The position numbers and the translations under genes are program-made. Shown here piece by piece: positions 7,904 through 20,121 of a stretch of 21,872 bases of DNA (its first letter is position 1; each line of letters starts with the position of its first letter). Source of the DNA: a virus. The stretch covers positions 1 through 21,872 of the IMG/VR virus record IMGVR_UViG_3300027881_000096; one strand, written 5' to 3'. Below the pieces are notes generated by a model. The model searched no databases. It was not told the origin of the DNA and saw only the letters and a list, made by a program, of their open reading frames with translations.

Positions 7904-10009
7904 ATGTTCAAAATATGGAGTAACATCAAGCGTTGGTTTTCTGGGGGGTTTAAAAAGAATCCTGCGTCGCATATTGGCAAGACTCAATTCCATGACGGCG
8001 AACAACATCCGAAATACGACCATACAGTTCATCTTGCCGTTTACACTATTGACGTATGGGCTTATGCATCTATCAGAGCAATTGCAAGAGCAATATCGCA
8101 ATTGCCTCTATTGGCTCAACAGCAACAAAAGATTGACGGTAAGATGCAATGGGAAACTCTGGAAAAGGGCGAATTATACGAGTTAGTGAATAAGCCGAAT
8201 CCCGATGAACCGATGAATCATTTGGTTGAAAGATGGATTTCGAGTGCGTTGGCGGCTGGTGATGGATATTTGCTATACGATTCCGACGACCATGAACTGT
8301 ATTATGTCAAACCGGATTTAGTTAAAGTCAAAACAGACAAGATGGGGAGATTCGTTAAGTATCAAATCTCCGATGGTGTACGAACAATATCTCAAGAACC
8401 TGAACAACTGATACATATCAAATTGACGAATCCGGACGGCGACTACTATGGATTCCCGCCGTCACAGGTCGTCAAACAAACGATTCTGACTAAACTTGCA
8501 ATGTCGAAGTATATCAATTCATATTTTAAAAATAACGCTTTAGCAGGGACGACGTTCAGCACTGAACACACATTGATTGAGGAACAGCGAGCCGAAATCA
8601 GACAGGAATTTGATAGAATGCACAAGGGGGCGGATAATGCTTTCAAGATGGCAATACTTGACGGAGGCGTCAAACTTGATCGCCTGAGTCATAATCTTAA
8701 AGATTTAATCCCTGACCAGATATACAAATTGATTCGTGAGGAAGTTCTTGCCGCTTATGGTGTGCCTCATGTCATGGTTGGAGTGTTGGATGATGCCAGT
8801 TATGCAAACGCCGATATTCAAAAGCGGTTGTTCTATGAAAACAGCGTCTTGCCGTTACTGACGATGATTGAATCCTTCATCAACTTACAATTGACTCCGC
8901 AGTTCGGGAATGACTTACGATTATGGTTCGACCGGTCATTGATTCAGGCATTGCAGGAACAACCGAATGAGAAGGCTGAACGGCTGAATAAGTTAATCAA
9001 CGGTCGCAATCAGATATTAACAGTCAACGAAGCACGAATCGAATTAGGTTATGAAGCTATTGTGGGATTCGACGAATTGAGCACTCCGCCCGATCCGTCG
9101 CAATTCATGTTCGGTCTTGGTGATGAAGAAGAACCCGAAGAAGATGCTGACGACGGTTCTGCTGATGAAAACGAGGAAGAAAAACGCTACAGGGTAATGA
9201 TCAAGCGGTGGAGAGCACATCACAGCAAGGTCTTAAAAGCAGAGAAAGAGTTTGCCGGAATCATGGTCAAGTTTTTCGATGAACAGGAAAACCGGATACT
9301 GGCACGGTTGACTGATTTAAATTTCAACGGGAAGCTGATGTCGTCGGTCTTGCACCATGAACTCGAAATGATGGAACGAAAAGACCTGTTGGATGATACT
9401 AACGTTTTATTTAATCGTAAACGTGAGAATAGATTATTAAAGAAGGCTGTCGAGCCAAAGATTAAGCGTGAGATTGTTATTGCCGGACAACAGGGCATAA
9501 ATCAAACGGCACGGAAAAACCTAATCCCAATAAGAAGGAAAAATGACCAGTTCAGGGTAACTGAACCGGAAGTACAGACGATGCTTCGCATGTTTTTGAA
9601 TCGGATGGATGATGTTAATGACACCACTTACGAAGCGATTAAATCCATTATCAGCGTTGCTTATGACGAAGGGCAGGGAGCGGATACGGTCGCAAGTGCA
9701 ATAAAAAAAGAATATGACATGATTAACAGAGTTCGCTCAAAGCGAATAGCTAAGACTGAGATGAATGGAATTGTAAACGGTGGGAATCTGCTCGGTGCAG
9801 TTCAAGGCGGTTCGACTCACAAGGAATGGGTGTGTGCATATTTGCCAGACACACGACAGGCACATTCCGACGCAGGTGGACAACCGCCTGTAACAATTGA
9901 TAAGCCGTTCATAGTGGGTAATGATGCAATGATGCATCCGGGTGATCCTAACGCATCGGTCGGTAACGTCGTGAACTGTTACTGTTCGATGGTGTGGTTT
10001 ATAGCATGA
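7904..10009 (+). CDS. Portal protein fused to Mu gpF-like minor head protein
   Basis: A 701-residue protein. About residues 1-405 form an HK97-type portal (Phage_portal): IDVWAYASIRAIARAISQLPL, then a WISSALAAGDGYL segment, YYGFPPSQV, and YGVPHVMVGV before the stem and crown region. An acidic linker (about residues 406-428, nearly all Asp/Glu) follows. About residues 430-600 are charged and helical. About residues 610-701 carry the Phage_Mu_F signature: RIAKTE, a W near 640, TRQAH, GGQPP, a MHPGDP motif and a final NCYC. Portals form the dodecameric DNA gate; gpF-like proteins are minor head or ejected proteins. In many phages these are two adjacent genes; here they are one continuous frame with no internal stop. 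Confidence 0.93.
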   Translation: MFKIWSNIKRWFSGGFKKNPASHIGKTQFHDGEQHPKYDHTVHLAVYTIDVWAYASIRAIARAISQLPLLAQQQQKIDGKMQWETLEKGELYELVNKPNPDEPMNHLVERWISSALAAGDGYLLYDSDDHELYYVKPDLVKVKTDKMGRFVKYQISDGVRTISQEPEQLIHIKLTNPDGDYYGFPPSQVVKQTILTKLAMSKYINSYFKNNALAGTTFSTEHTLIEEQRAEIRQEFDRMHKGADNAFKMAILDGGVKLDRLSHNLKDLIPDQIYKLIREEVLAAYGVPHVMVGVLDDASYANADIQKRLFYENSVLPLLTMIESFINLQLTPQFGNDLRLWFDRSLIQALQEQPNEKAERLNKLINGRNQILTVNEARIELGYEAIVGFDELSTPPDPSQFMFGLGDEEEPEEDADDGSADENEEEKRYRVMIKRWRAHHSKVLKAEKEFAGIMVKFFDEQENRILARLTDLNFNGKLMSSVLHHELEMMERKDLLDDTNVLFNRKRENRLLKKAVEPKIKREIVIAGQQGINQTARKNLIPIRRKNDQFRVTEPEVQTMLRMFLNRMDDVNDTTYEAIKSIISVAYDEGQGADTVASAIKKEYDMINRVRSKRIAKTEMNGIVNGGNLLGAVQGGSTHKEWVCAYLPDTRQAHSDAGGQPPVTIDKPFIVGNDAMMHPGDPNASVGNVVNCYCSMVWFIA

Positions 10010-10019
10010 AAGGGAATTT

Positions 10020-12143
10020 ATGAATAAACGGATTTATGGACAAGTTTTAGACTTTAAAGATTTCAAGGGTGATAGTGAATCACCTTACGAGATGATTGTC
10101 ACGATTAGACCGGCAACCAGTGATGTTGATCGGTACAATGAGATCACCGATCAGGACGCATTTATGAAGGCGATGCCGGAGTTTATGAAGAATCCGGTGT
10201 CAATGTATAACCATGAACATAACATCGGCAAGATATTGGCTTACGACAAAGACAAAAAGAGTGTCATTGTTGATATTGGGTTGGCTAAGACTGATAAGGC
10301 TCGTGAAGTCGCTGAATTGGTACGCATCGGTGCAGTGTCACGTTCATCGTTCATGTTTGGTAAGGCAAACTATAAAAACGAAGAAGGGCGTGATGACGTC
10401 AGGCGGTTAGTTGATTTCGAAATCTATGAAATGGGCTTGGTTGATATACCGGCGAATCCCAATGCTGGAATAATAAACTTCAAAAATTACAAAGACAATG
10501 AATTCATCGTGATAAACGAAAACGAGGATAATTCCAACAATTTATTAAAAGGAAAAAAAACGATGGATTTAGACAAAAAGAAATTGCTCGATGACATGAG
10601 AGCAATAGTTGATCCGATGCAATTGGAAGTTGATGGGTTGCGTTCGGATTGGGTGACCATGAAGGAAAACGCTGAGTCGGCGACGAAGCTGATGAAGCAG
10701 GTTGAAGAGAAGCAGCAACAGTTGGTGGACGGTCGAATCAACAAAGAGGAATTCGAAACATTCGCCGGTAAAATCGGAACTGATATTCTTGACATCCAGA
10801 AGGATTTGAAAAGGTTTGAACAAGCCGGTAAAATTCAGGCGAATCGTCTGCCATATTCCGACTGGAAGGCTTTAAGTTCTGACATCAAGGTTGTGTTTGA
10901 TGAAAACGGTCAGGCATTGTCGGCGAAACATCAGAAGGCGTATCATTTCTTGCATACACCATTTGACTTTGATACCGATGAAGGAAAGCGGTTGAGAGAC
11001 TTACGAGACTTGAACGACACCATTATTATCGCTCATGCTTATTTCAAGAAGATGGGGACTGGCAATTACAGGATGGAAAACCTGAAATGTTTCCAATTGT
11101 TCGAAAAATTGCTGAAAGACTTCGATCCTGAACTTCAAAAAGCCATGTATTCGACCGGTACTGGCGTCGGTGATGAATGGGTTCCGACTAATTTCTCCGC
11201 ACAATTGCACGAAGCATACGAATTGGAAATGAACCTGGAAACACATATCCCCCGTTGGGAGATGCCTTCTAATTCAGCTTATTACCCGATAAGCGGTGCA
11301 CGACCGAGAATGTATCGTGTCGGTGAAGCGGCTGTCAATAACCCGACTCAGATGGTTAAATCTAACCATACCACAAGCAATACACTGTTCACGACTGAAA
11401 CTTTTGGCGTCGCTGTTATGTCGTCACCGGAATTCATCGAGGATTCTATTATTGCTGCCGCTCCGGCATTACGGAAATCAATATCCAAAGCTATGAGTGA
11501 AGGCAATGAAAGCCGTTACCTCAATGCTGACGATTCCACTGCCGGAACTCACATGGATACGGCTGCCGATTGGGCGACTGACACAACTTATCCCGAAGCC
11601 TACGAAAAAGGGTTCAGGAAATTCGCTATTGCCGGTTCGAGAAACATTAGTGCACAGTCAGCATCAGCCGGTGTTGGTGATGGAACTACTGCTTTTGTTG
11701 CAGAGGATGTTCGCAGTTTACGTGGTGACTTACCGTCCGGTATGGGACATAAAGCCAAAGACCTGGTGTATGTCACTTCAATCAATGTCTGGTTGAATAT
11801 GTTGAGTTTTAATCAATATTCACAGATCGGGACATACGGAGCAAACGCTTCATGGTTGACGGGTGATTTGCCGGCATTTGACGGTTCACCGTTAGTCGTG
11901 ACTTCCGAATTGTCTGAAACGATGGCATCGACTGGATTGAAAACTGGCTCCGATACAACCAAAGGTCTGGTTTGTTACAACAAAACAGATTTCAAGGTTG
12001 GATATAAACGTAATGTGACGCTTGAATTTGATAAAGACATTTTGACTCAGCAGTATGCTTTTGTGGCAACACAGAGGAACTCATTCAAGTCAATGTCGGC
12101 GTCAACTTACGAAGCCGTCGCATACTTAATAAATATTCCATAA
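10020..12143 (+). CDS. HK97-type prohead protease fused to major capsid protein
   Basis: A 707-residue frame, SD AAAGGGA just before the ATG. About residues 1-165 are a prohead protease (peptidase family S78): catalytic His in MYNHEHN (H65), Ser in AVSRSSFMF (probably S110) and YEMGLVDIPANPNAG. A poly-Asn/Glu/Lys junction follows. Residues 182-290 are helical and coiled-coil-like, suiting an HK97 delta/scaffold domain. About residues 300-707 are the HK97-fold capsid: GVGDEWVPTNFSAQLHEA (E loop and N arm region), a TETFGVAVMSSPEF segment and a C-terminal KVGYKRNVTLEFDKD beta region. In HK97 itself, protease and capsid are separate genes. An in-frame ATG with its own SD and an A8 run lie at the junction, so separate products may also be made. 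Confidence 0.93.
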   Translation: MNKRIYGQVLDFKDFKGDSESPYEMIVTIRPATSDVDRYNEITDQDAFMKAMPEFMKNPVSMYNHEHNIGKILAYDKDKKSVIVDIGLAKTDKAREVAELVRIGAVSRSSFMFGKANYKNEEGRDDVRRLVDFEIYEMGLVDIPANPNAGIINFKNYKDNEFIVINENEDNSNNLLKGKKTMDLDKKKLLDDMRAIVDPMQLEVDGLRSDWVTMKENAESATKLMKQVEEKQQQLVDGRINKEEFETFAGKIGTDILDIQKDLKRFEQAGKIQANRLPYSDWKALSSDIKVVFDENGQALSAKHQKAYHFLHTPFDFDTDEGKRLRDLRDLNDTIIIAHAYFKKMGTGNYRMENLKCFQLFEKLLKDFDPELQKAMYSTGTGVGDEWVPTNFSAQLHEAYELEMNLETHIPRWEMPSNSAYYPISGARPRMYRVGEAAVNNPTQMVKSNHTTSNTLFTTETFGVAVMSSPEFIEDSIIAAAPALRKSISKAMSEGNESRYLNADDSTAGTHMDTAADWATDTTYPEAYEKGFRKFAIAGSRNISAQSASAGVGDGTTAFVAEDVRSLRGDLPSGMGHKAKDLVYVTSINVWLNMLSFNQYSQIGTYGANASWLTGDLPAFDGSPLVVTSELSETMASTGLKTGSDTTKGLVCYNKTDFKVGYKRNVTLEFDKDILTQQYAFVATQRNSFKSMSASTYEAVAYLINIP
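10547..10565 (+). promoter_or_regulatory. Internal in-frame SD and start, with A8 slippery run, at the protease-capsid junction
   Basis: AAAAGGA (10547-10553) lies 9 bases before an in-frame ATG at 10563 (residue 182), which would start a free capsid protein of 526 residues. The same spot has eight consecutive A (10553-10560), read in frame as A-AAA-AAA. A -1 shift meets TGA at 10592-10594 and a +1 shift meets TAG at 10570-10572, so slippage would end translation within about a dozen codons and leave a free protease. Confidence 0.6.
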
Positions 12144-15905: not shown

Positions 15906-16931
15906 ATGAGTATTACATCTGTTCCGCAAACGCCGAACGAGTTCAGGTATGGCATAGCACAGCAAATTGCTTTAGGAACTGCTATTGCCGACGATGCTGC
16001 ATTCGTCGAGCTTGATTGTGAACAAGCGGAAGTCAATTACGGTGTCAAACAATTAGATACCACAAGTTCACATGGTTACAGATATAAAACCGACAATGAT
16101 ATTATCACTCATCAATACGGTGTGTCGCCGTCGGTTACATTATCGGGAATAGCCAACCACAACAGCATCGACTATTTCTCTTATGCGTTCTGTCAATCGG
16201 TGACTGAGGCAGTTGCAACTCCATACTTAAAGACATTCATCGTGCACGCATCACAGCCGAATTTTTCTGACATTTCGGCGGTGTCAAGTGCCGGTCAATT
16301 GCTGACTGTCGTCCTTCGTGATCCAGAGGCATCAAAGTCGGTCAAGCTGACAGATTGTGTTGCAAAGTCATTAACTTATACCTGGTCACAGGGCGAACCG
16401 TTGAGATATTCTGTTGAACTGGTTAGTCGTGCGGCGGCTTCATTCTCAAGCAACCCGTCCGGTACTTGGACGAAGGTAACGTCGGGCGACTTTTTCTATT
16501 TTGAAGATTTGGATACGGTTCAGATTGATTCGACAGATTTTCATCTGACAGAATTTGAATTGTCGTTGTCACAGGACGTTGCACCAATCGGTCAGGATGG
16601 ATCGGGCAACTTCGCTGATTATGGATTAGTGAATAAACAGCTTGGATTTAAAATCAAGGTCGTAAAAGATGCTGATTGGGAGGCTAATCTGACGGCATGG
16701 ACAACCAATACTGCTATTGTTGGTGATGTTAAGATCGGCACTGGCACTGTTGACGGTGATATTACTTTTGATTTCAGGGGCAAGATGAACGCCGAAACCG
16801 GTGCACAGAAGGTGTACGATGATTTGGTCAGTGGAGAATTGAATGGAATTTTAACCCATGACGGAACGTCTGCTGTACCATTGACCATTGGTATTGCTAA
16901 TGCCGTTGATAGAACTTGGGTGACTGCATAA
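15906..16931 (+). CDS. Major tail tube protein
   Basis: A 341-residue protein with AAAGGA upstream. Position (after the tail terminators, before the chaperone and tape measure genes), length and beta-rich pattern fit the major tail protein, which polymerises as hexamer rings into the tail tube. Features include EFRYGIAQQIALGTA at the N terminus, a LTYTWSQGEPLRYSVELVSRAA beta segment, repeated FELSLSQDVAPIG and FKIKVVKDADWEANLTAW segments and a GDITFDFRGKMNAETGAQKV segment near the end. The second half (from about residue 215) repeats the 'strand plus v..da.w...l' style often seen in tube proteins. It is longer than many tail tube proteins. Confidence 0.85.
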   Translation: MSITSVPQTPNEFRYGIAQQIALGTAIADDAAFVELDCEQAEVNYGVKQLDTTSSHGYRYKTDNDIITHQYGVSPSVTLSGIANHNSIDYFSYAFCQSVTEAVATPYLKTFIVHASQPNFSDISAVSSAGQLLTVVLRDPEASKSVKLTDCVAKSLTYTWSQGEPLRYSVELVSRAAASFSSNPSGTWTKVTSGDFFYFEDLDTVQIDSTDFHLTEFELSLSQDVAPIGQDGSGNFADYGLVNKQLGFKIKVVKDADWEANLTAWTTNTAIVGDVKIGTGTVDGDITFDFRGKMNAETGAQKVYDDLVSGELNGILTHDGTSAVPLTIGIANAVDRTWVTA

Positions 16932-16960
16932 CGAAAACAAAACAAACGAAAGGAATTGTT

Positions 16961-17377
16961 ATGACATGGATTAGACCAGGGAAAGAGATAGAAATTGAAG
17001 TTGAGGGTTTGAATATCAGTTTCTTGCCTGTCGGACGTCGTGAACGTGTCGAGATGGAAACAGTATTAGAAGATGATGGCGCTGTAAACTGGATGATAGC
17101 CATTTTTGATTTTGTTGAGAAGCACGTAATTAAGATTGATGATGTTGAAGATGCCCTCGAATTCATTGAAGTCCAACCCGGACGGATGGTTGTTAAATTG
17201 TATAACGCAATCATGCTTCACGGTACAATCTCGAAAGATGCGGCTGAAAATTTAGACTTGCCGTCGGAATCATCGCAACCGGCATCTCCGACGGCGACTG
17301 TAGAAAATGCCGAGAAGGACGATGTTTCAACAAATCAAGAATCGTCGAAGCAAAGAGAAAAGGCAAAGTTGAATTAA
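16961..17377 (+). CDS. Tail assembly chaperone (gpG-like)
   Basis: 138 residues from the ATG at 16961, which has AAAGGA a few bases upstream; an upstream in-frame start at 16916 would overlap the tail tube gene and lacks an SD. The folded part (about residues 1-95) has ITKTKQ-free N terminus MTWIRPGKEIEIEVEG, LPVGRRERVEMETVLED and FIEVQPGRMVVKLYNAI. The last 40 residues are Ser/Glu/Pro/Lys-rich. A reading frame with good coding character continues in the -1 frame to 17661. This is the arrangement of lambda G/GT, in which a fraction of ribosomes shifts and makes a longer chaperone that binds the tape measure protein. Confidence 0.8.
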   Translation: MTWIRPGKEIEIEVEGLNISFLPVGRRERVEMETVLEDDGAVNWMIAIFDFVEKHVIKIDDVEDALEFIEVQPGRMVVKLYNAIMLHGTISKDAAENLDLPSESSQPASPTATVENAEKDDVSTNQESSKQREKAKLN

Positions 17378-17661
17378 CAGTTACCAAAAAGGAATGGTAT
17401 AAAATTGTTGAACTTGCACATGAACAGATTGATGCGAATCTTCCGCCGTTGCCGTGCCTTGCTCAATATTCCGTCTGTCCGATGGGTGCAGTATCGGTTG
17501 AGAGCAATATGTTGCTTGAGTTATATCATGCAGTCGATGGTTTCAGGCGGTTATCTACGCCGGACGAATATCTTAACCAGTTGGATTACTATGTTGAAGC
17601 GTTCAAGGTTATTGATAATGAATTTGCAAAGTTCAATAAGATAAAGGCAAGCAATGGGTAG
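17359..17661 (+). CDS. Tail chaperone -1 frameshift extension (gpT-like part of GT)
   Basis: This frame is open from 17248 to the stop at 17659-17661 and lacks an ATG or GTG with an SD at its beginning, so it is read most simply by a -1 shift from the gpG-like gene. From about 17359 it encodes KGKVELTVTKKEWYKIVELA and a conserved-looking helical domain with LPPLPCLAQYSVCPMG and YLNQLDYYVEAFKVIDNE; 100 residues. A shift at A-AAG (17359-17362) would join residues 1-133 of G to this part, giving about 233 residues. It ends 8 bases into the tape measure gene, as T does in other phages. The exact slip point is inferred. Confidence 0.65.
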   Translation, partial: KGKVELTVTKKEWYKIVELAHEQIDANLPPLPCLAQYSVCPMGAVSVESNMLLELYHAVDGFRRLSTPDEYLNQLDYYVEAFKVIDNEFAKFNKIKASNG

Positions 17662-19339
17662 TAATACTGAGAATCTTCGCTTACGAGTAACGGCGAAGGA
17701 TGCGACTAAGAAGGCATTGGGTGGTGTTGCTAATTCCCTGAAGGGTATCGTCGGTGCTTACATCGGTTTCAAGGCAGTCACTGGAATAATAAAGTCGGTA
17801 ACTAAGGCAGCAATGGAACATGAAAAGGCATGGAACGCTGTTGCCGCATCATTGGTTCGACATGGACAAATGGTGGATGGTAATATATTTAAGATAAAAA
17901 AATTCTCAGGTGAAATGCAAGCGATGTCGGGTGAATCGGATGAAGTCATAGGTAAAATGGTTCAATCGTTTGTTGATTATGGGCAATCAGTTGAAGAAGC
18001 AATGGACACAGCAAGAGTTGCTATGGATTTGGCTGCTGGTGGTAATATGAATTTAATGGCGGCATCCGATTTACTTGCGAAAGCTGCTGTTGGTTATACC
18101 GGGACATTATCACGGTATGGAATTATCATTGATGAAAGTGTTCCAAAGTCTGAACGATTTGCGGCAGCGATTGAACAAATCAATGACAGATTTGGCGGTG
18201 CGGCACAAGCACAGGCAGAAACGTTTGATGTTAAATTAAAGTCAATGACTCAATCATGGGGTGACCTGACCGAAGCCGTTGGATTGTTTATAACAGAAGC
18301 AAAATCAGTCGGTGGTTTATTTGATGGTATCATTGAGGGGTTGAATGCTGTAACAGAGGAATTGACTGATAGTGTTTCATTTTGGGATAAAGCGGTAGCA
18401 AAATTTTATCAAGTTACCGGACAGCAAGAAAAATATTTAGAAAAAGTCAGTGAAATAGTTGAAGCGGAACTTGAAGGTCGTCGAAAAATTGAAAAAGCAC
18501 AAAAGGCACGACTGGAAATTGCTCAACAAGTTAATGCTGATTTACTGATAATAGAAACACAACAATTGGCAGAGATGGAATTGCTTCACTTGAACGCTGA
18601 AATTGCAAGGGGCATGAAATTAAAAGAACTTACCTTACAATTACGACAAGAAACAGACGAAGAGTTGATTGCGAACGTTGTGGAAACAAACGAGGAACTT
18701 CAATATCATGCTGATTTATTATTTAAGAAGTTACAGGACAATAATAAAAAAGAACTTAAAGCATATAAAGATTTACAGCAAGAGAAAAAAGAGGCATCGG
18801 CTGAATTTGCGAGAGCTGCCGGTAACATATTAAATTCTGGTGTCGATTCGATGGTTGATGCAATGTTTGATGGACAACAAAGTTTTCAAGATATATTCAA
18901 AGGTATGGCAGAGGATTTCATGAAATTCTTCATCAAACAAGGCTTGGCGTCAATTGCAAATGTCTTTATTCCTGGATTGGGTGCATTACTTGGCGGAATA
19001 TTTGATACAGCTAAAAATGACAGGATGGCAATGACACAGGGATTACATTTTGCACAATATTTCTCAAAGGGTGCAATGTTTGAATTTAATAGGTTTGCGA
19101 ATAGCGTTCCGTCAGCGTTAGCATTTAATAGTTCTGCCTTTGGTTCGTTGTCACTTGCAGGTGTTTCCGGCGGCGGTGGAGGCAATATAACAATCAATAT
19201 AAGCGATTCAGTTGTTGAGGAGAGTTTTGTTAGAGATAAACTTGTACCTGCAATCGAATCGGCAATCAATTCCGGGCATACGGATATATCAATAGATAAT
19301 TCCAATCTAACCGGAACTCCTAACGTGAGGTTGGCATAA
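17654..19339 (+). CDS. Tail tape measure protein
   Basis: A 561-residue protein with AAAGG upstream and an 8-base overlap with the chaperone extension. Features of tape measures: an N-terminal basic and glycine-rich start with a hydrophobic segment (LKGIVGAYIGFKAVTGIIKSV), the motif TKAAMEHEKAWNAV followed by the family-typical helix-rich block with VDYGQSVEEAMDTARVAMDLA and GIIIDESVPKSERFAAAIEQINDRFGGAA, a long charged helical region (about residues 250-390), and a C-terminal hydrophobic part (SIANVFIPGLGALLGGIFD). At the usual 1.5 Angstrom per residue this predicts a tail of roughly 80-85 nm, short for a siphovirus. It appears complete. Confidence 0.93.
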   Translation: MGSNTENLRLRVTAKDATKKALGGVANSLKGIVGAYIGFKAVTGIIKSVTKAAMEHEKAWNAVAASLVRHGQMVDGNIFKIKKFSGEMQAMSGESDEVIGKMVQSFVDYGQSVEEAMDTARVAMDLAAGGNMNLMAASDLLAKAAVGYTGTLSRYGIIIDESVPKSERFAAAIEQINDRFGGAAQAQAETFDVKLKSMTQSWGDLTEAVGLFITEAKSVGGLFDGIIEGLNAVTEELTDSVSFWDKAVAKFYQVTGQQEKYLEKVSEIVEAELEGRRKIEKAQKARLEIAQQVNADLLIIETQQLAEMELLHLNAEIARGMKLKELTLQLRQETDEELIANVVETNEELQYHADLLFKKLQDNNKKELKAYKDLQQEKKEASAEFARAAGNILNSGVDSMVDAMFDGQQSFQDIFKGMAEDFMKFFIKQGLASIANVFIPGLGALLGGIFDTAKNDRMAMTQGLHFAQYFSKGAMFEFNRFANSVPSALAFNSSAFGSLSLAGVSGGGGGNITINISDSVVEESFVRDKLVPAIESAINSGHTDISIDNSNLTGTPNVRLA

Positions 19340-20121
19340 TGGCAAGTACAGTTACTTTATATAATCAAATAATGTCAGGTCTGTCATCAGTAACGGCGAC
19401 ATCGGCTGAAAGTAATCGTCCTGTTGAAAATATGTTTGATAATAATTTATATACAATCTGGAAAGGCACATCAACGGCACAGCAAGCAATAACGATGGAT
19501 TTTGGTTCTGCCATCGCCATAACAGGTGCTTACGCATTTGTAAGAAATTATGGAGGAATATTATCGGGTAATACGTGGGAATTATATTATTCAAGTAACG
19601 GTTCAGATTTCTTTGATTTTAGTCCTTATGGAGAAGGTACTTTTGTTGATACAACAACGCCGCATAGAATTATGACATTTGGTGAAAGAAATTTTCGTTA
19701 TTGGAGAATGTATTTTAGTAATAATAATTATATACCACAAATTACAATGTTGGCATTATTAACAACTAAAGCAATAACGATTGGCAATCAATTCCCAGAA
19801 GATGATACAACTATTTATAGTAATGTAAAAACAAGGGCTGCTGGTGGTCAATTATTTGTGAGAAGTATAAATCAGACACCACAAATAAGATTTAGTCGAA
19901 CATATATGATTAACGGCACAACTAATAATGATTTATTGCAAGCTGCTTTTGATGATTCTTTTGGTTCATTGATTCCTATTATAATACAAGAAGGATCAAC
20001 GCAATCTGACCTAAGGGTTGTCAGGTTTCTTGATGATGAATTGAAAAAAAATGAAATCGAATATCAGATGTATAAACCGACGGTGAATTTTGAAACTCTG
20101 CCGTATGATGATATTTATTGA
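19339..20121 (+). CDS. Distal tail protein with discoidin-like (F5/8 type C) N-terminal domain
   Basis: A 260-residue protein whose ATG overlaps the tape measure stop (TAATG). About residues 25-140 show the F5/8 type C pattern: NRPVENMFDNNLYTIWKGTS, then AITMDFGSAIAITGAYAF, WELYYSSNGSDFFDF and RYWRMYFSNNN near the end. This fold usually binds carbohydrates or surfaces. About residues 145-260 form a second beta-rich domain (TIGNQFPEDDTTIYS, IRFSRTYMINGTTN, DLRVVRFLDDELKKNEIEYQMY), whose location fits a Dit-like distal tail protein. A receptor-facing role is an inference. The TGA is followed by C and then six sense codons to the next ATG. Confidence 0.7.
   Translation: MASTVTLYNQIMSGLSSVTATSAESNRPVENMFDNNLYTIWKGTSTAQQAITMDFGSAIAITGAYAFVRNYGGILSGNTWELYYSSNGSDFFDFSPYGEGTFVDTTTPHRIMTFGERNFRYWRMYFSNNNYIPQITMLALLTTKAITIGNQFPEDDTTIYSNVKTRAAGGQLFVRSINQTPQIRFSRTYMINGTTNNDLLQAAFDDSFGSLIPIIIQEGSTQSDLRVVRFLDDELKKNEIEYQMYKPTVNFETLPYDDIY

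Follow-up and report, generated by a model that had tools for sequence, protein, structure and literature searches.

Fusions of a phage maturation protease to the capsid protein have already been published (Anseraureola, PMC9671004; ScienceWizSam, PMC9753647; PMC12760985; Pseudomonas phage MD8 gp5, PMC8508860). In HK97 (gp4/gp5) and T5 (pb11/pb8), a minor S78-type protease is encoded upstream of a major, delta-domain HK97-fold capsid protein, but the genes are separate, and the protease is packaged with no covalent bond to the capsid protein (PMC12749128, PMC5292684). The classical in-frame nested protease gene is lambda C/Nu3 (Shaw and Murialdo 1980, as cited in PMC8508860); in lambda, the long product is the protease, and initiation at the internal start gives a short product, the abundant assembly partner, which is a scaffold; capsid protein E is encoded by a separate gene.

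Many sequenced phages have one capsid-protease fusion protein in their annotation, which raises the question of how a shell built from hundreds of subunits could cope with a protease on every one. In herpesviruses, UL26/UL26.5 is a protease-scaffold gene nested in frame; its short product, UL26.5, is the more abundant one, has its own transcript and is scaffold rather than shell protein. The gene described here, from a window of 21,872 bases (a virus fragment, analysed as a whole), is likewise a nested in-frame protease gene, but its predicted short product is the shell protein. From its sequence it appears to resemble C/Nu3 in its working without being a member of that class: 19 of 20 fused loci have a conserved in-frame start inside the gene, complete with a ribosome site, but the nested product carries an HK97-fold capsid with a built-in scaffold domain, instead of being a scaffold with the capsid elsewhere. 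Anseraureola, ScienceWizSam and MD8 gp5 share with the window a single frame and, in the records examined, a candidate start at the joint; they differ in being described as one product and in belonging to other capsid lineages, and the MD8 protease is ClpP-like. No mention of an internal start in protease-capsid fusions was found in the open-access literature, the partial coverage of which makes this weak evidence of absence. The fusions themselves were thus known already; for fusions that retain the capsid's start, the new element here, we found no report.

Gene order in the window is typical from head to tail: terminase, portal-MuF fusion, protease-capsid, head-tail genes and tape measure. 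On the + strand, where all features of this locus lie, a single uninterrupted frame of 707 codons (10020..12143) begins with ATG, is served by the Shine-Dalgarno (SD) sequence AAAGGGA (10009..10015; -4.7 kcal/mol) and encodes protease, linker, delta domain and capsid, a fusion also present in 19 other contigs. The Peptidase_S78 domain (PF04586; residues 35–152, 10122..10475) scores 41.3 bits against a curated cut-off of 21 (Pfam E 2.3e-10). Its H65, S110 and E137 are invariant in the alignment of 19 fused relatives, and the catalytic His/Ser (H65, S110) are likewise kept in six split or named phages. The capsid part is an HK97-fold, T5-type major capsid protein: by profile it hits T5-type capsids of the PDB at E about 1e-43, and with an AlphaFold2 model of residues 182–707 (mean pLDDT 73) Foldseek ranked the DT57C and T5 capsids first (probability 1.00). 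A model of the entire fusion was poor (pLDDT 46) and was set aside. From profile, model and alignment to the T5-type precursor, the fusion is predicted to divide into protease (residues 1–181), a mainly helical delta (scaffold) domain (residues 182–374; 10563..11141) and a mature capsid protein with the HK97 fold (residues 375–707; 11142..12140). Removal of the delta domain is predicted at K374/A375 (11139..11144), a putative maturation cleavage site kept in 27 of 30 relatives; its counterpart in the aligned T5-type precursor is K159/A160, at which the mature chain of 299 residues begins.

At the joint, which reads GGA AAA AAA ACG ATG in phase, codon 182 is an in-frame ATG (10563..10565) preceded by the SD AAAAGGA (10547..10553; -5.6 kcal/mol). 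A preliminary description of this DNA, made from the letters and their open reading frames, had reported both the 707-residue S78-capsid frame and this start with its own SD, and our domain matches and coordinates agree with it. The nested capsid gene so defined (10563..12143, 526 residues) is the part recovered by profile match, AlphaFold2 model and Foldseek. The strength of its SD is typical for this phage, whose other starts have values between -3.2 and -6.9 kcal/mol. Considered alone, the joint site is unremarkable, ranking third among 26 in-frame ATGs with p about 0.24–0.48 under a synonymous-codon null; its significance comes from the relatives, not from the window sequence alone. A predicted RNA stem (10500–10510 with 10560–10570; 10500..10570) pairs the internal AUG, which counts against its use as a start, and leaves the SD open. 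The modelled stem could couple internal initiation to ribosomes coming from the protease; it is not conserved across the relatives compared. As for an internal capsid promoter, promoter-like hits were no more numerous than in shuffles, with none on the + strand in 9900–10563, and this candidate was rejected.

Scans of viral and genome collections with single proteins returned no relatives, and the portal alignment gave no usable motif. Distant homologues were reached by alignments instead, and two domain profiles were then scanned for both domains in one frame. This yielded 20 distinct fused contigs, the window and 19 others, with many further cases in separate ORFs. The capsid parts of the other fused members are only 21–41% identical to that of the window, and on this sequence divergence the fused state appears to be long-lived. 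The window and L010 form a pair on the capsid tree (support 100/96), within a fused clade of ten members. Six changes of the fused label are needed on this tree, of which well-supported branches force at least three, and placing all fused members in one clade is rejected (p_AU 3e-6); the fused state has therefore been gained or lost several times. In split relatives, the capsid ORF begins at the place equivalent to the joint start; in Proteus phage PM135, the separate protease and capsid genes are in the same frame, 12 nt apart.

An in-frame ATG at the joint with an SD of -5.6 kcal/mol or stronger is present in 19 of the 20 fused loci, window included (18 of 19 relatives), 8–38 codons past the S78 domain. 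Examples are AAAAGGAGCCACAAA-ATG in L012, AAAAGGAGCAAATGCA-ATG in L011 and ACAGGAGGTTCTGGG-ATG in L127. The exception, L057, has the SD GGAAAGGGAAT ahead of CTG and no ATG, GTG or TTG at the joint, and is a point against two starts there. When a fixed window of 8–38 codons beyond the S78 end was applied, ATG plus SD occurred in 18/20 fused loci and in 170 of 2,346 same-frame control windows (7.2%); the nominal p of 5e-19 is too small, because it ignores the shared ancestry of the fused loci, and the SD threshold, equal to the window's own value, was chosen after the first loci had been seen. One relative, L051 (contig VGOG01000264.1), comes from a Chloroflexi metagenome-assembled genome, where a 4.9-kb contig holds a 786-residue protease-capsid frame with a strong joint start, AGGAGG..ATG at 2201; possibly, this contig is DNA of a phage or prophage that was binned together with its host.

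The most serious competing explanation is that capsid subunits are all synthesised as the fusion, from which the protease cuts itself free; the SD would then be a relic of an old gene border or a by-product of a linker rich in Lys, Gly and Glu. The frame is open throughout, database records annotate a single fusion product, and purine-rich linker codons often make SD words by chance: per-locus synonymous shuffles fell below 0.05 in only 4/19 loci. Weak as these nulls are for a second start, shuffling is a weak test, since Lys/Gly/Glu codons yield SD words anyway, and region-matched control windows and the portal-MuF joint replaced it as our main test. Nor do we take as proof the SD profile averaged over the joint ATGs, which is biased because these ATGs had been picked for their SD. 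Against a by-product of the linker, SD and ATG recur at the same place across large divergence. The SD core occurs in each of the three codon registers, and the residues that it overlies vary from phage to phage, which suggests that it is kept as an RNA signal and is not a shadow of protein conservation. Moreover, in the portal-MuF fusions of the same phages, the matching window after the portal domain contains an SD-led ATG in only 1 of 19 loci, and the window's own portal-MuF fusion (7904-10009) shows no internal ribosome start; fused genes of these phages thus do not keep a start at the joint as a rule.

Joint starts also recur in other protease-capsid fusion families, which a single product would not lead one to expect, although database records annotate these fusions as one product too. 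In a Microbacterium/Curtobacterium small-genome group (Anseraureola, Barebow and Efeko), the strongest internal SD and ATG lie at the joint, at codons 166–173, in all three. In an Arthrobacter-Gordonia-Streptomyces-Rhodococcus-Bifidobacterium-Lactococcus group, SD and ATG are found in 11/13, compared with 10% of ATG control windows; Eevee and CHPC971 have an SD with GTG or TTG, so that the count is 13/13 only if these codons are included, and the candidates were chosen near the joint by eye, with no pre-set window. The SD here is mostly GAAGGA, which encodes a recurrent Glu-Gly; conservation at the protein level thus partly confounds the comparison, which counts against the two-start reading. 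MD8 gp5, with its ClpP-type protease, has AGGAG..ATG at codon 220, directly past the protease, and also a stronger SD-led ATG within the protease domain. When the actinophage fusions were searched against the PDB, no match that would show a processed N-terminus came up. Five annotated actinophage or lactococcal fusions (L205, L207, L208, L213 and L214) have two candidate internal starts, separated by about 50–120 codons, and might thus make three nested products.

Protease dose bears on the same choice. The protease:capsid ratio of proheads is about 60:415 in HK97 and about 90:540 in D3 (PMC12749128), and a protease on each subunit would greatly exceed it; a minor fusion with a major free precursor would suit these ratios. 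Taking this together with the recurrent joint starts, we judge that the fusion is improbable as the only product.

The reading we consider likely is that translation begins at two sites of a gene nested in frame, giving a minor fusion and a major free precursor, with self-cleavage at K374/A375. Initiation at 10020 would give the 707-residue protease-delta-capsid fusion as the minor product, and initiation at 10563 a capsid precursor of 526 residues, made up of delta and the HK97-fold capsid, as the bulk product that would build the prohead. The fusion would co-assemble as a minor subunit and so carry the S78 protease into the prohead, where cleavage between K374 and A375 would free the protease-delta piece and trim delta off all subunits. 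From the frame, domains, conserved catalytic residues, internal SD and ATG and K/A site computed here, we infer that both starts are used and in what ratio, that the fusion co-assembles and that it cleaves itself. The conserved K/A site argues that self-cleavage and internal initiation both operate, the two not being mutually exclusive. In the simplest history, the protease would have lost its stop codon while the capsid's ribosome site was retained. The preliminary description had proposed that the joint sets the capsid to protease ratio through three products: the fusion, a free 526-residue capsid protein and a frameshift-made free protease. Comparison of sequences supports well the part that rests on internal initiation, namely a free capsid protein and an uneven capsid:protease ratio, since SD and ATG are conserved in nearly all fused loci, as that description had asked to be checked, and recur in other families. 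The third product is not supported, the run of eight A residues on which it depended being unconserved.

That run (A8, 10553..10560) is real and phased as A_AAA_AAA, as had been noted, and the frame closes soon after a shift in either direction: after 191 residues for a -1 slip and after 183 for a +1 slip, close to the 185–193 residues first given. Programmed ribosomal or transcriptional slippage here, with or without internal initiation, would therefore release a free protease of 183–191 residues. However, the A8 is absent from 18/18 relatives examined: no A run of 7 or more was found at the joint in any of them, the nearest, L010, included, and the longest near the joint was 6. No relative has an in-frame slippery heptamer at the joint, and stray ones lie outside it, 55–73 nt upstream (two loci) or 29 nt downstream (one locus), so that the conserved slippery site that would mark a programmed -1 frameshift of the dnaX or T7 10A/10B kind was not found. 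In dnaX, the SD lies about 10 nt upstream of the slippery site, whereas in the window the SD abuts the A8; the nearest downstream RNA stem begins about 24 nt after the run, and a second A8 occurs elsewhere in the window, at 20044. We set the frameshift reading aside because the run is confined to the window, the SD touches it and the stem is distant. Programmed slippage is very unlikely, low-level slippage at the A8 may still occur, and the run, being found only in the window, is most likely simply an A-rich spacer from SD to ATG. That the real homopolymer is not eight long and the genes are actually separate in this phage is conceivable, as homopolymers are error-prone and one A gained or lost would split the frame, but such an assembly artefact is extremely improbable with the window nested in a ten-member fused clade whose nearest relatives are fused without an A run of such length.

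Beyond this phage, we lean towards a general rule, that fusions of a tailed-phage maturation protease to a capsid protein, whatever the protease and capsid families, retain the capsid's own start inside the frame. Annotated fusions would then be two-product genes making mainly free capsid, with the fusion as a covalent means of loading a measured protease dose. A conserved nested start would be a simple answer to the problem of a protease on each subunit: dose would be set by translation and the protease addressed to the prohead interior by fusion, and, if the internal start is used, only a minority of shell subunits need bear it. For annotators, a nested capsid gene is to be added to such records.

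Several other genes of the window were noted. Portal and MuF-like domains share one 701-residue frame at 7904-10009, as in GBK2 and Silence. A pentapeptide-repeat protein lies at the left edge of the fragment (1-531; Pfam E 6.5e-28), and 1497-2240 encodes a DUF5131 protein, phage Gp37/Gp68-like (Pfam E 3.6e-73). Directly after the tape measure, a tail-region gene (19339-20121) has an F5/8 type C (discoidin-like) domain (Pfam E 3.8e-9). Immediately upstream of the tape measure, the frame 16916-17377 ends in REKAKLN*, and the -1 frame continues as a long plausible coding stretch (about 17365-17661) that includes KVELTVTKKEWYKIVELAHEQ; the whole arrangement (16916-17661) looks like a tail-assembly-chaperone -1 frameshift.
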